Below are positions 14,150 through 22,229 of a stretch of DNA of 32,415 nt, in pieces. Below the pieces are notes generated by a model. The model saw nothing but the letters and a program-made list of their open reading frames with translations, was not told the origin of the DNA and made no database searches. The stretch lies in contig CAJYCI010000005.1 of the NCBI GenBank assembly GCA_913428515.1, forward strand, positions 1 to 32,415, read 5' to 3'. The stretch's first letter is position 1, and every line of letters begins with the position of its first letter. This stretch comes from an uncultured Gammaproteobacteria bacterium (GTDB lineage Bacteria > Pseudomonadota > Gammaproteobacteria > Pseudomonadales > Azotimanducaceae). The position numbers and the translations under genes are program-made.

Positions 14150-14581
14150 ATGAATGATCTTATATTACAGCCTGTTTTGTTTATGGGAGCACTCACTACG
14201 TTAATGTTGATTTGGATGTACGCTACCAGATTGCCAGCGTCTTTGGTTCTTCAACAAAAAGGTACCAATCTTCAGGATTTATCTCATCCCTCTGCGTTGG
14301 GCGGCGTTTTTCCAAGCAAAGTTGAAAGAGTAGCAGATAATTATAACCATCTTTGGGAGCAGCCTACTCTTTTCTACGCGATCGTATTTGTCATTTGGGC
14401 TCAGAATCATACGGATCAATTCTACTTAATTTTAGCATGGAGCTATTGCTTTATAAGGTTCTTTCACTCCATCGTTCAAGCCACGGTCAACCATGTCTGG
14501 GCCAGGTTCTCCTTGTTTATTTTGAGTTGGTGCGTTTTGATCTTTATGTTGCTCCGGGAAATTTTTGTAGTTCTGGGTTGA
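14150..14581 (+). CDS. MAPEG family membrane protein (paralogue of 1629-2045)
   Basis: DNYNHLWEQPTLFYAIV, LAWSYCFIRFFHSIVQATVNHVWARF. Confidence 0.82.
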   Translation: MNDLILQPVLFMGALTTLMLIWMYATRLPASLVLQQKGTNLQDLSHPSALGGVFPSKVERVADNYNHLWEQPTLFYAIVFVIWAQNHTDQFYLILAWSYCFIRFFHSIVQATVNHVWARFSLFILSWCVLIFMLLREIFVVLG

Positions 14582-16540: not shown

Positions 16541-16954
16541 ATGGAGGATCTTTCATATACTGGTTTAACAACCGGGATTGCGCTGCTAGCTTACTATTAC
16601 ACCCTCATGAAAGCTGGTTCAGCAAGAGGAAAATTTGGTGTTCAGGCTCCGTCGCACGATGGTCCGGATGAATATCTAAGATACGTTCGAGCCCATCAAA
16701 ATACGTTAGAACATATTGTGATTTTTCTTCCTGCACTATGGCTTTTCTCTTACGCCGTGGATTCTTTTTGGGGAGCCACAATTGGTCTGCTATGGCCAGT
16801 CGGAAGGATGCTTTATGCTCTTGGATACTATGTAAGTGCTGAAAAAAGGATGCTCGGGTTAATTATCAGTATGCTACCTCTCTTTGTTTTAGTTCTGGGA
16901 GGATTTCTCGGATGCGCCTGGAATCTCTACGAAGTAATTTACTCAAAGCACTAA
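16541..16954 (+). CDS. MAPEG family membrane protein (microsomal-GST-like subgroup)
   Basis: YLRYVRAHQNTLEHIVIFLPALWLFSYAVDSFWGATIGLLWPVGRMLYALGYY; GGAGG 7 nt before ATG. Confidence 0.85.
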   Translation: MEDLSYTGLTTGIALLAYYYTLMKAGSARGKFGVQAPSHDGPDEYLRYVRAHQNTLEHIVIFLPALWLFSYAVDSFWGATIGLLWPVGRMLYALGYYVSAEKRMLGLIISMLPLFVLVLGGFLGCAWNLYEVIYSKH

Positions 16955-17028
16955 ATAACTATCTTGAAGAGAACAATAGTTAAAATTAAATTAAAGTTTC
17001 TTAAGTTTTATCACGGGAGTAATTGATC

Positions 17029-17811
17029 ATGTTGATTTCAATAGCCAGTAAGCTTTCACTGTTACTAATATTATTGTGTTCATTTAATTCGCACTCAAAT
17101 GATTTAAAAGATTTTGTTGAGAGTAGCTCGCGAAGTGAGGCTAATATACTTAGAGATGTTTACAGAAATCCCTTTGAGACCTTATCTTTTTTTAAGCTTA
17201 AACCTGATATTAGTGTTGTTGAGCTTTCTCCAGGAGGAGGCTGGTACACCGAGATATTAGCACCATACTTGAAAGAGTCAGGAAACTTAATCGTTGCTCA
17301 TTTTAATCCTGATTTAGGTGGTTATTACGAAAAAAGCCGACGCCGTTTCGAAGAAAAAATCAAAGATAATGAGATTTTTGAAGCGATGACTATCGTAAAT
17401 CTTGATGCACAATTCTCTAAGCCCGGTGAGGCCGACGCAGTACTAACCTTTCGTAACTTACACAATTGGATAGGTCCGCAGTTGGATGTCATCTTAAACA
17501 GTGTCTATTTATCCCTTAAATCGGGGGGGATACTAGGGGTTGTTGAGCACAGGGCTGAACCGGGAACTAGCATCGAAGCAATGAAGAAAAGTGGATACGT
17601 TACTGAAGAGTGGGCGATTTCCGAGGTAGAGAAAAAAGGATTTGTTCTATTGGCTAGGTCAGAATTAAACGCCAATCCGCGCGATACCAAAAATCATCCA
17701 CGAGGAGTCTGGACACTTCCTCCGTCTATGGCAATGAAAGAACAAGATAAAAAGAAGTACGAGGCAATTGGGGAAAGTGATCGAATGACATTACTTTTTC
17801 AAAAACCCTAG
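17029..17811 (+). CDS. Predicted exported class I SAM-dependent methyltransferase (COG4798-like)
   Basis: Signal-peptide-like MLISIASKLSLLLILLCSFNSHS, then VVELSPGGGWYTEILAPYLKESG and FRNLHNW; ATG 17029 has better SD spacing than the TTG at 17023. Confidence 0.8.
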   Translation: MLISIASKLSLLLILLCSFNSHSNDLKDFVESSSRSEANILRDVYRNPFETLSFFKLKPDISVVELSPGGGWYTEILAPYLKESGNLIVAHFNPDLGGYYEKSRRRFEEKIKDNEIFEAMTIVNLDAQFSKPGEADAVLTFRNLHNWIGPQLDVILNSVYLSLKSGGILGVVEHRAEPGTSIEAMKKSGYVTEEWAISEVEKKGFVLLARSELNANPRDTKNHPRGVWTLPPSMAMKEQDKKKYEAIGESDRMTLLFQKP

Positions 17812-17814
17812 AAA

Positions 17815-19155
17815 ATGAGCTACATGAAATCAGACAGATCGGACTTTCTAGAAGGTTATTACCCTTCTCGCTGGCCTGTTGAGTGTGGCGGAAATCGTAG
17901 GCAAAAATCTGCTTTTGGTGGAATCTTTGCACGAGAAGGAGACCCCGAAGTCGTAAGTGTCAAGAATGGGCGATGGAATGTAATGACAATTCATAGAGGG
18001 CCCGGAGAGCTTTATCTCGCAGGGACAATGCCCTCGTTTAAAGGCCCTCCACCCTTCGGCTGGTTGCAAAAATTAGATCCAGACTCTCTTGATGTAATTT
18101 CTGAGTCTCGAGAGTTGCCGTGTGGAGACCACGTTTGGTGTGGTGCGATAGCCGCTCACGCCAACGGCAATATAATGATGGTCAATGGAAATTATCTTCA
18201 CAGCCTCTCACCTGATTGCGAAGTAGTGAGGGAAGCTAAGCTACCTGTAGACCAGGCGCATAATGGATTGATCGTGTTATCAGATGGAACCATTGTCACC
18301 AAAGATTTGCGTTTAGAAAATCAGGGCCAATCGACTATAAGCCGGCTTGATCCAGATACCCTGGAATTATTGCACGAACCTTTGATTCTCCCAGAGGGAT
18401 CGATGGGTAGAATAGCAAGTGATAAAACCGAAAAAGGAGAATTTATTTACGTGCCAGGCATTGAAAAAGTTTGGCGAATTGCTGTCGAGCCTGATGAGCT
18501 CAAATTGGATGAAACCTGGTGTCCCCGTTATCGTCGCATTGGAGGATCCCAGGGCTTGTCTTGGGATGGGTGTCTATCAGAGGACTATCTTTGGCTTATG
18601 GATAATGGCGATATAGATTCTCTGCGGGCAATCTACGGAAACCACCCCAACGGAAGGTTTCAAGCTGAAGATTTTGAAGCGCTCTCACGTTTGAGCTGGC
18701 AAAGAGCAGCGCCTTGGAGTGGACAACAACGATTATTAAGGTTTTCTCTTTGGGATGGATCCCTAAAAGAAATTTCACCCTTTGGCGCAGCGGGCGGAGG
18801 TATCATAGCGCCCCCCGTCAATGTTCCTGAGCATAAGATGTGTATAGCATGGGACAGTATCAACGGAGGTTTAGCCGGTATTTCAACTGACTCAGAAGAA
18901 CTCAAGTTGGCCTGGAAGATTGATGTTAGGCCCTCAATGCAGCCAGTGGTTTTTCCAGACTCAGGCGAGTTAGTGATTAATGACTATCAGGATAGGGACG
19001 ATCAAATAATAGTTGTGGATATTAGAAGTGGCGAATTAATAAGCAAAGTCAGTCTCAGCTCGCCACTAGCCAACGGAATGTTCCTCAGTCCAGGTTTTGA
19101 ACGAGATATTTACTACTGCTCGACCCTAACTTTTGCTCGAGTTCGGTGGCGCTAA
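17815..19155 (+). CDS. Protein of unknown function, beta-propeller-like (SMP-30/arylsulfotransferase/PQQ-repeat resembling)
   Basis: 446-aa ORF with several blade-like repeats (HNGLIVLSDGTIVTKDL, STISRLDPDTLELLHEPL, EFIYVPGIEKVWRI, GELVINDYQDRDDQIIVVDIRSGELI). Confidence 0.6.
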   Translation: MSYMKSDRSDFLEGYYPSRWPVECGGNRRQKSAFGGIFAREGDPEVVSVKNGRWNVMTIHRGPGELYLAGTMPSFKGPPPFGWLQKLDPDSLDVISESRELPCGDHVWCGAIAAHANGNIMMVNGNYLHSLSPDCEVVREAKLPVDQAHNGLIVLSDGTIVTKDLRLENQGQSTISRLDPDTLELLHEPLILPEGSMGRIASDKTEKGEFIYVPGIEKVWRIAVEPDELKLDETWCPRYRRIGGSQGLSWDGCLSEDYLWLMDNGDIDSLRAIYGNHPNGRFQAEDFEALSRLSWQRAAPWSGQQRLLRFSLWDGSLKEISPFGAAGGGIIAPPVNVPEHKMCIAWDSINGGLAGISTDSEELKLAWKIDVRPSMQPVVFPDSGELVINDYQDRDDQIIVVDIRSGELISKVSLSSPLANGMFLSPGFERDIYYCSTLTFARVRWR

Positions 19156-19952
19156 CAATGCTTCTCTATTAAATTCAAAGCCCAAGTTATGATTCTCGGA
19201 TTATCCTCAGCATTTAGAATGTATTCCTGTCCTTGTCCCTTGCACTCTAGAGTGCATTCATTCTCATTTTCCCATTTCAATCGGTTTAAAAACAAATCTT
19301 TTGATTTAGAAAAATACTTTTTGGGGAACCTCCAATGAGACCGTGTTTTCCCTTTTTCGGTGAGAATGAGATCAGCGCTGGTTTTTTTAAAAATGCCGTA
19401 GCCAGGGAGTTTTTTTTTAACGCCTGACAGACCTATTCTTTTTCGTCCTATGTACAAAGCGTTGTTTGGGTAGTTCGATCTTTCGCCAAATCCATGAGGA
19501 TGGACAAGTCCTCGTTCCTTTAGATAATTCTTAATATCAATGTCAGAAGTCAAAATGTCTTCTATTTGTAACCAACCAAATAAATGATGGGTATCCCGTT
19601 CTTTTGAAGAGAAACGTCTGAACCAGCCGAAAAATAAAAATAGATCGTCTTTCTCGACCTTCCTATTACGAAGTTCAGATTGTGACGAATTGGCTTGTCC
19701 AAATAAACCGATTCCAGTTCGGAGGTCAGGGTCGAAGTGACAGTAATCAGTTCTCGAAACTGACGAAACAGAAGCTTCCCTCAAAGCAACTTCTCCAGAT
19801 ATTCCATGGATCTTCAGGTCAGCGTACTTGTGAGGAGAAGGTACCTTAGAAGGAATTGGTATCGAAAAGATTGTGTCATCTGGAAATATAGGCGATGCCG
19901 TTCTTCCCGAGCTCGAGTCAAATCCTTTTCTACTTAGAATTATTCTTCTCAT
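19152..19952 (-). CDS. Nmad3 (nucleotide modification associated domain 3) family protein
   Basis: MRRIILSRKGFDSSSGRTASPIFPDDTIFSIPIPS, HFDPDLR...GLFGQANSSQSELRN..VEKDDLFLFFGWFRRF, HHLFGWLQIEDIL, YPNNALYIGRKR, GYGIF, LTEKGKTRSHWRFPKKYF match the family pattern as I recall it. Confidence 0.85.
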   Translation of the reverse strand: MRRIILSRKGFDSSSGRTASPIFPDDTIFSIPIPSKVPSPHKYADLKIHGISGEVALREASVSSVSRTDYCHFDPDLRTGIGLFGQANSSQSELRNRKVEKDDLFLFFGWFRRFSSKERDTHHLFGWLQIEDILTSDIDIKNYLKERGLVHPHGFGERSNYPNNALYIGRKRIGLSGVKKKLPGYGIFKKTSADLILTEKGKTRSHWRFPKKYFSKSKDLFLNRLKWENENECTLECKGQGQEYILNAEDNPRIITWALNLIEKHC

Positions 19953-20033
19953 CTCTGTTAGCTTTAGTTTGTTTAGAAAATACCGATAAAAAAAACTTGT
20001 TACAAGCTGAACGAAAACATTGTTAAATGGTGA

Positions 20034-22229
20034 ATGATGGATGTTTCAAATCTCCTAGATAATTTAAACGAACCTCAACGCGAATGTGTTGCCGGACCCA
20101 AGGGAAGTTCTCTGGTGCTCGCTGGTGCGGGTAGCGGTAAGACGAGGGTTTTGGTGCACAGAATCGCTTGGCTTATTAAGGCAGAGGGCATTTCGCCATT
20201 CAGCATCCTTGCGGTTACCTTCACGAACAAAGCTGCGTCAGAAATGAGAGCGAGAATCGAAGGCTTATTAGGTTCTTCCCTTCGAGGGATGTGGGTAGGT
20301 ACTTTTCACGGTATTGCCCACCGAATTTTGCGGGCTCACTACGAAGATGCTGGATTGCAAAGGGACTTCCAAATTTTAGATTCGGATGATCAGATTAGGT
20401 TGGTGAAGCGGGTGATTCTTAGCCTGGATTTAGATGAAAAAAAATGGCCAGCGCGGCAGGCCACTTGGTGGATAAATAGTCAAAAAGACGAGGGCTTAAG
20501 ACCAAAAAATATAGAGCACATGGATGACCTCTACATTAAAACACACCTGGCGATATATACCGCTTATGAGGACGCCTGTTTGCGTGGTGGTATGGTTGAC
20601 TTTGCAGAGTTGCTTCTGAGAGCCCACGAGCTTTGGTTAAAAAAACCTGAACTTCTTAAGCATTACCAAAATCGCTTCTCCGCATTGTTAGTAGACGAGT
20701 TCCAGGATACAAATTCTGTTCAGTATGCTTGGTTGAGGGTGCTTGCTGGAAACAACGACAATCTCATGGTAGTGGGTGATGATGATCAATCCATTTACGG
20801 TTGGCGCGGAGCGAAAATTGAGAATATTCAGCAATTTTCGAAAGATTTTCCACAGTCCAGCACCATCAGGCTTGAACAAAACTATCGGTCTACTTCCAAC
20901 ATCTTAAAGGCCGCTAATGGGCTTATCGATCAGAACTTTGGCCGTTTGGGTAAGGAGCTTTGGACAGACTTGGGCGATGGTGAGCCTCTTAACTTGTTTT
21001 CAGGCTTTAACGAGATCGATGAAGCTCGTTACATTGTAGATCGGATAAAAGATTGGACTGCTCAAGGCAATATGCGAAGAGAAGCTGCAATTCTATATAG
21101 ATCTAACGCGCAGTCAAGGGTCCTTGAGGAAGTTCTTCTAAGAAGCCAGATCCCATACAAAATATATGGGGGACAAAGATTTTTCGAGCGTATGGAGATA
21201 AAAAATGTTCTTGCATACATGCGTTTAATTAACGCACCATCCTCAGACTCAGCCTTTGAAAGAGTCGTCAATACACCGCCCCGAGGAGTTGGAACTAAGA
21301 GCGTTGATGAAATTAGAGGTTTTGCGAGGGAAAATAATATCTCTTTGTGGGACGCGTCTCAGCGGTTAGTTGAGGATAATATTCTTAGCTCGCGTGCTTC
21401 CAATTCGGTTCGTGGATTTATCGATTTTATAGTTCTGTTAACAAAAAAAAGTGATCAGCTCGATCTTGAAGAAATAGTTGAACTGGTAGTGAGGGAGAGC
21501 GGACTGAAAGAGTATCACATGAAAGAAGGCGGCGAGAGAGGCCAGGCGAGACTGGAAAATCTAGCAGAACTTGTCACTGCAGCTCAAACCTTTGATCCTT
21601 CCTTCGAGTATTTGTTAGATGACGACGGCGTTGAGCCTGAAGGATCTCAGCTTAGTGATTTAGAAGAATTTTTAAACCACGCCTCCCTTGAAGCTGGTGA
21701 GCAGCAGGCGGGTGATAGTGAAGATTGTGTTCAGATGATGACGATGCACAGTGCCAAGGGTTTGGAATTCCCGTTAGTCTTTTTGGCCGGTATGGAAGAC
21801 GGACTATTCCCTCATACAATGTCCATGGAGGAACCAGGACGATTAGAGGAAGAACGAAGACTCTGTTATGTCGGTATAACGAGAGCGATGAGAAAACTTT
21901 ATTTAACGTACGCAGAGTCCAGAAGAATCCACGGCAACGAGACAATGAACAGGCCCTCAAGATTTATCTCTGAAATTCCCGAGGAGGTTATAAAAGAAGT
22001 ACGAATGAATAATACCGTTGTACTCAACGCACCAAAACGCAGGGTAAGAGATGGCATAGTTGATGGGACAGACTTTAGACTGGGTCAGCGGGTAATACAC
22101 GATAAATTTGGGGAAGGTGTGATCTTGAATTACGAAGGAAATGGAACCTCTGCCAGAGTTCAGGTAAATTTTAATTCTGGCAGTAAATGGCTAGTTATGG
22201 CTTACGCTAACTTAAAAGCGGTGGGATAA
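20034..22229 (+). CDS. uvrD: DNA helicase II, UvrD/PcrA/Rep superfamily 1
   Basis: LNEPQREC, LAGAGSGKTRVL Walker A, VDEFQDTN, VGDDDQSIYGWRGA, MTMHSAKGLEF; C-terminal tandem-Tudor-like tail. Confidence 0.96.
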   Translation: MMDVSNLLDNLNEPQRECVAGPKGSSLVLAGAGSGKTRVLVHRIAWLIKAEGISPFSILAVTFTNKAASEMRARIEGLLGSSLRGMWVGTFHGIAHRILRAHYEDAGLQRDFQILDSDDQIRLVKRVILSLDLDEKKWPARQATWWINSQKDEGLRPKNIEHMDDLYIKTHLAIYTAYEDACLRGGMVDFAELLLRAHELWLKKPELLKHYQNRFSALLVDEFQDTNSVQYAWLRVLAGNNDNLMVVGDDDQSIYGWRGAKIENIQQFSKDFPQSSTIRLEQNYRSTSNILKAANGLIDQNFGRLGKELWTDLGDGEPLNLFSGFNEIDEARYIVDRIKDWTAQGNMRREAAILYRSNAQSRVLEEVLLRSQIPYKIYGGQRFFERMEIKNVLAYMRLINAPSSDSAFERVVNTPPRGVGTKSVDEIRGFARENNISLWDASQRLVEDNILSSRASNSVRGFIDFIVLLTKKSDQLDLEEIVELVVRESGLKEYHMKEGGERGQARLENLAELVTAAQTFDPSFEYLLDDDGVEPEGSQLSDLEEFLNHASLEAGEQQAGDSEDCVQMMTMHSAKGLEFPLVFLAGMEDGLFPHTMSMEEPGRLEEERRLCYVGITRAMRKLYLTYAESRRIHGNETMNRPSRFISEIPEEVIKEVRMNNTVVLNAPKRRVRDGIVDGTDFRLGQRVIHDKFGEGVILNYEGNGTSARVQVNFNSGSKWLVMAYANLKAVG

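Follow-up and report, generated by a model that had tools for sequence, protein, structure and literature searches.

The Nmad families reportedly owe their name to an association with base hypermodification. For Nmad3, the name is known, and the literature searched yielded neither an activity nor a fold, in keeping with the statement of the first-pass annotation of this DNA that no biochemical activity had been established. By predicted structure, the closest described systems are found in the PUA superfamily, whose EVE and YTH domains bind modified bases of DNA or RNA. The EVE domain of VcaM4I flips out 5mC or 5hmC and takes it up in a pocket formed by P24, W82 and Y130, and hydrogen bonds are provided by near-N-terminal residues, including T11 and E15 (PMC7897488). 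Within the same superfamily, the ASCH proteins set a precedent for enzymes: YqfB is an N4-acylcytosine amidohydrolase that hydrolyses N4-acetylcytidine, for which a Thr-Lys-Glu triad has been proposed (PMC6972931), and ZmASCH is described as a ribonuclease (PMC5615036). Here, an Nmad3 gene was analysed within the window, i.e. the whole stretch of 32,415 nucleotides, which makes up one entire contig of a 1.14-Mb assembly judged 58% complete.

Identity of the gene and its locus

The gene spans positions 19152–19952 on the reverse strand, starts with ATG and encodes a protein of 266 residues. Residues 3–246 cover positions 1–246 of the 247 positions of the PF18754 (Nmad3) profile in Pfam hmmscan, with E = 1.4e-52 and a score of 179.3 bits, where the curated cut-off is 27, and all columns invariant in the family are present. 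The product is a full-length member of the known Nmad3 family, which bears out the first-pass annotation, whose quoted motifs are all present. Pfam returned no second family even at E ≤ 5, and neither the EVE nor the ASCH profile matched at that threshold; the protein falls outside Pfam EVE (PF01878). Searches for PHROG, NCBIfam and PADLOC families (the latter at E ≤ 1) returned zero matches, and no relative of solved structure was retrieved by sequence using either the protein or a 31-member profile. Genes for base modification are absent from the 32-kb window, which leaves family membership unaffected because the association is the rationale of the name and not a sequence criterion.

On one side, the gene is convergent with, and overlaps by four bases, the gene of an orphan protein of 446 residues (17815–19155, forward strand) without a Pfam match above chance. 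On the other, it is divergent from uvrD, which encodes DNA helicase II (20034–22229, forward strand; NF008743, 1175 bits against a cut-off of 965), across an intergenic region of 81 bp (19953–20033). These are the two neighbours that the first-pass annotation had indicated, and since the gene is convergent with one and divergent from the other, it is not in an operon with either. Within the intergenic region, TTGTTACAA at 19997–20005 is kept in all four genus members compared. Together with TGTTAAAT, which is likewise kept in four genus members, it forms a pair of elements (19990–20026) that is possibly the uvrD promoter. A LexA box that would place Nmad3 and uvrD under joint SOS control was considered and discarded, as the intergenic region contains no LexA-box-like match.

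Three bases before the orphan gene ends another gene, which is weakly methyltransferase-like and encodes a signal-like N-terminus. The two (17023–19155, forward strand) likely form an operon that is inherited beside Nmad3 in the genus. The other genes of the window are ordinary chromosomal ones and include spoT, a RidA-type gene, recG, ubiA and an HhH-GPD DNA glycosylase gene, as well as genes for a dicarboxylate symporter, a TRAP transporter, an ABC transporter, a phosphate transporter and MAPEG proteins, the latter encoded by three separate genes (1629–2045, 14150–14581 and 16541–16954). Across the window, no phage gene, modification cassette or defence island was found, in agreement with the earlier remark that neither phage nor cassette was visible around the gene, and there were no RNA elements or tRNAs.

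The closest public relative is 93% identical and comes from an OM182-clade bacterium. Gene order, whose conservation the first-pass annotation had suggested examining, is kept in three orthologues of 93, 80 and 65% identity. The dN/dS ratio of Nmad3 is 0.08–0.10, about twice that of uvrD, and the gene is under purifying selection. Orthologues with conserved gene order and this ratio identify it as a real gene. Within the genus, Nmad3 is present in four of 17 genomes, and the orphan gene occurs in those four, plus as a fragment in a fifth. In four of six checked genus members devoid of both genes, glmS (named, like glmU, from the first part of its sequence) lies directly before uvrD, and the transporter after uvrD is kept. 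The left-hand flank of uvrD is therefore a rearranged junction. As the adjacency is limited to four genus members, uvrD was rejected as a conserved functional partner.

Distribution and partner genes

Nmad3 was found in 15 of 121 genomes of the window's own taxonomic family, the Azotimanducaceae, in seven of 369 genomes sampled in the class and in nine of 399 in the phylum, with the window's own genome counted in each case; a single copy is present in that OM182-clade assembly, which is 58% complete. The first-pass annotation had placed Nmad domains largely in phages. This premise does not hold for Nmad3 in the collections searched: tblastn with three divergent queries detected it in none of 50,697 phage records, so that carriage by known phages was discarded. 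Among 72,556 plasmids, there were only two matches, both in large secondary replicons typed as non-mobilizable. Pattern-based, non-exhaustive scans of 2.9 million IMG/VR contigs yielded 11 loci, and repeat scans gave the same contigs. In at least one such contig, L074, a Mu-like capsid gene adjoins Nmad3. With zero occurrences in phage records and 11 IMG/VR loci against 15 of 121 family genomes, a solitary chromosomal copy is the normal state rather than an anomaly. In the Nmad3 tree, members of the window's taxonomic family are split over several separate clades, and a locus from a Chloroflexota-labelled metagenome-assembled genome, whose contig may be mis-binned, is nested in the clade of the window. 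Together with the patchy distribution, the tree suggests horizontal transfer.

Certain other loci carry candidate partners. Nmad2 (PF18753) overlaps or adjoins Nmad3 at six of approximately 42 loci (L061, L063, L069, L072, L081 and G097), in both gene orders, yet is a separate family; the idea that it is a distant copy of Nmad3 was dropped, as profile comparison with hhalign gave nothing. Nmad2 occurs in four of 121 family genomes, three of which also have Nmad3 (Fisher P = 0.006, ignoring genome relatedness). A second protein, with the motif WEFGSFGCTxCHR and no Pfam match, hereafter the CxxCH protein, is encoded after Nmad3 in L043 (8764–9471, reverse strand) and L077 (5560–6222, forward strand) and is fused to the C-terminus of Nmad3 in L045 (684–1229, reverse strand). 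It was found in two of the 121 family genomes, each of which also has Nmad3, and is a possible new partner family. Neither Nmad2 nor the CxxCH protein was found in the window's own genome as assembled, which is incomplete. The window copy differs from other Nmad3 genes in that neither Nmad2 nor a modification gene adjoins it.

Further arrangements were observed at single loci. In L072 (7308–9550, forward strand), a viral or prophage contig, genes for Nmad2, Nmad3 and DUF1643 are consecutive. In L145 (2181–4977, forward strand), Nmad2 directly follows the gene of a UvrD-type helicase with an extra N-terminal region; this locus belongs to a member of the taxonomic family whose genome yielded no Nmad3. 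In L079 (758–2068, forward strand), an environmental contig, Nmad3 is fused to approximately 140 extra residues, whose final part weakly resembles HNH_3 (E = 0.085) and seems to be devoid of the catalytic histidine.

Conserved residues and predicted fold

Conservation was computed over 42 divergent Nmad3 sequences, with the window protein among them. Residues R8, D12, G16, P32-I33-P34, H72, D74, P75, G85, L94, D103, H153 and W207 are invariant in all 42, and the window protein keeps every column conserved in at least 90% of the sequences except G26 (38 of 42), which is replaced by D. Both R8 and D12 belong to the S7-R-K-G-F-D12 motif at the end of strand 1 (19917–19934, reverse strand, as for all segments below). 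H72-x-D74-P75, invariant in all but x, is encoded at 19728–19739, and H151-P-H153, in which H151 is found in 41 of 42 sequences, at 19494–19502. W207 corresponds to 19332–19334 and Q242-E243, each in 41 of 42 sequences, to 19224–19229. The set of invariant or near-invariant charged or histidine residues comprises R8, K9, D12, H72, D74, D103, H122, H151, H153, Q242 and E243.

An AlphaFold model of the window protein was obtained with a 14-sequence alignment (mean pLDDT 84.0, pTM 0.87). The compact homologue L077, which is 31% identical, was also folded (pLDDT 91.7, pTM 0.90) to test whether the fold signal of the first model was an accident of that one model; the two models are not wholly independent since both use the same 14 alignment rows. 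In Foldseek searches against the PDB, the window model returned near the top McrB-N (methylated DNA), THYN1 (5mC DNA), MJECL36, PH1033, ZmASCH, PH0355 and YTHDF2, and its leading matches were mostly PUA-superfamily domains (EVE, YTH and ASCH). With the L077 model, ranks 1–7 were all EVE proteins, including PH1033, THYN1, Q88CH6 and PSPTO5229, and the best match, PH1033, had a probability of 0.93 and a TM score of 0.54 by target length. The classing of the named entries as EVE, YTH or ASCH proteins follows PMC7897488 in part. A search of a viral structure library likewise returned ASCH and EVE proteins. None of the Foldseek matches reached E ≤ 0.001, with a best E of 0.02, and the best TM score by query length was 0.35, so large parts of Nmad3 lie outside the EVE core.

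The predicted order of the core elements in the L077 model is that of EVE domains (PMC7641849), with insertions. In an hhalign comparison of 44 Nmad3 with 30 EVE sequences, residues 89–109 (SSQSELRNRKVEKDDLFLFFG; 19626–19688), which form a helix followed by a strand, were paired at the expected place with the EVE segment QARNMLRDQMKVGDQIFFYH at P = 0.033, which is not significant alone. An unrelated transporter profile included as a control scored better than EVE (P = 0.0067 versus 0.033); EVE thus ranked second among the profiles compared, and profile–profile proof of homology was abandoned.

Based on the models and structure searches, the Nmad3 core probably has an EVE-like fold of the PUA superfamily, and the domain at 19215–19946 is predicted to be an EVE/PUA-like barrel with insertions. 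The EVE proteins of PF01878 (PH1033, PSPTO5229, THYN1 and VcaM4I) provide the top structural matches and agree in the order of core elements with that predicted for Nmad3, which differs from them in approximately 100 extra residues, other conserved residues, weak E-values and the lack of a Pfam EVE match. ASCH (YqfB and ZmASCH) and YTH domains, which were also returned in the structure searches, are smaller than Nmad3 and have no sequence match to it. The fold assignment is our own, as the literature searched, short of the Nmad-naming paper, contained no statement of it; it may already stand in that paper or in the Pfam clan assignment.

Proposed function and rival readings

For ligand, catalysis and biological role, we infer the following. 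Nmad3 is a stand-alone protein, with a core that is most likely a barrel of the PUA superfamily and nearest to EVE domains. In the latter, the modified base is flipped out and sits in a pocket of the barrel face, close to where strand 1 ends. Nmad3 may bind a modified base in an equivalent predicted pocket, whether that base is part of DNA, part of RNA or a free nucleotide. According to the models, its S-R-K-G-F-D segment after strand 1 would be placed where EVE domains have base-contacting residues. The conserved residues H72, D74, D103, H122, H151, H153, Q242, E243 and W207 resemble an active site. Nmad3 would more likely act on the base or nucleotide, as a hydrolase or eraser, than merely read it. 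An enzyme is favoured over a reader because the invariant or near-invariant positions include so many charged and histidine residues and because the PUA superfamily includes enzymes such as YqfB and ZmASCH. That Nmad3 is a PUA/EVE-like protein with a modified-base pocket, which would both bind the base and act on it, strikes us as evenly balanced. Its more specific form, a catalytic EVE/PUA branch that serves as a chromosomal eraser or nucleotide-sanitising hydrolase, spread horizontally in free-living bacteria and sometimes accompanied by Nmad2, is put forward tentatively.

The main rival to an enzyme is a passive, non-catalytic reader, which we deem rather unlikely. An EVE/YTH-like module would flip and bind one modified base and recruit further proteins or signal to them, with Nmad2 and the CxxCH partner as examples in other genomes, and in the window's genome it would work alone or with unlinked partners. 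The nearest folds are indeed EVE and YTH readers, partners adjoin or are fused with Nmad3 at several loci, and the fusion of L079 recalls EVE–HNH restriction enzymes (PMC7897488). However, about 12 invariant charged or histidine residues seem more than a simple aromatic cage needs, and no effector gene stands beside Nmad3 in the window.

An improbable alternative is biosynthesis, with Nmad3 belonging to a pathway that makes a hypermodified base in a genome with modified DNA. The reported basis of the family name is consistent with it, and in two related phage-like contigs (L073 and L075) Nmad3 is found just after a ParB-N6/N4 methylase gene. Yet the window has no modification cassette, Nmad2 was not found in its own incomplete genome, most chromosomal Nmad3 loci are without modification neighbours, and the phage records searched contain none.

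Antiphage defence, in which Nmad3 would sense or attack modified phage DNA, is very unlikely: its patchy, horizontally spread distribution and the presence of an Nmad domain of unspecified type in one of the uncharacterised predicted defence systems (PMC13092281) would suit such a role, but there is no PADLOC match, no defence gene nearby and a low dN/dS, and Nmad3 is found in small genomes, such as that of G306 with 1.2 Mb. Of the first-pass suggestion of action on nucleotides or DNA in a housekeeping or defence context, the action itself is strengthened by the predicted EVE/PUA-like fold, and the defence part found no positive evidence here, with neither a PADLOC match nor a defence island and with a low dN/dS.

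If the core is EVE-like, the Nmad3 family would be directly testable with modified-base oligonucleotides and nucleosides. As a chromosomal and solitary gene under purifying selection in marine bacteria, Nmad3 shifts attention away from hypermodification in phages and towards the ordinary nucleic-acid or nucleotide chemistry of bacteria.
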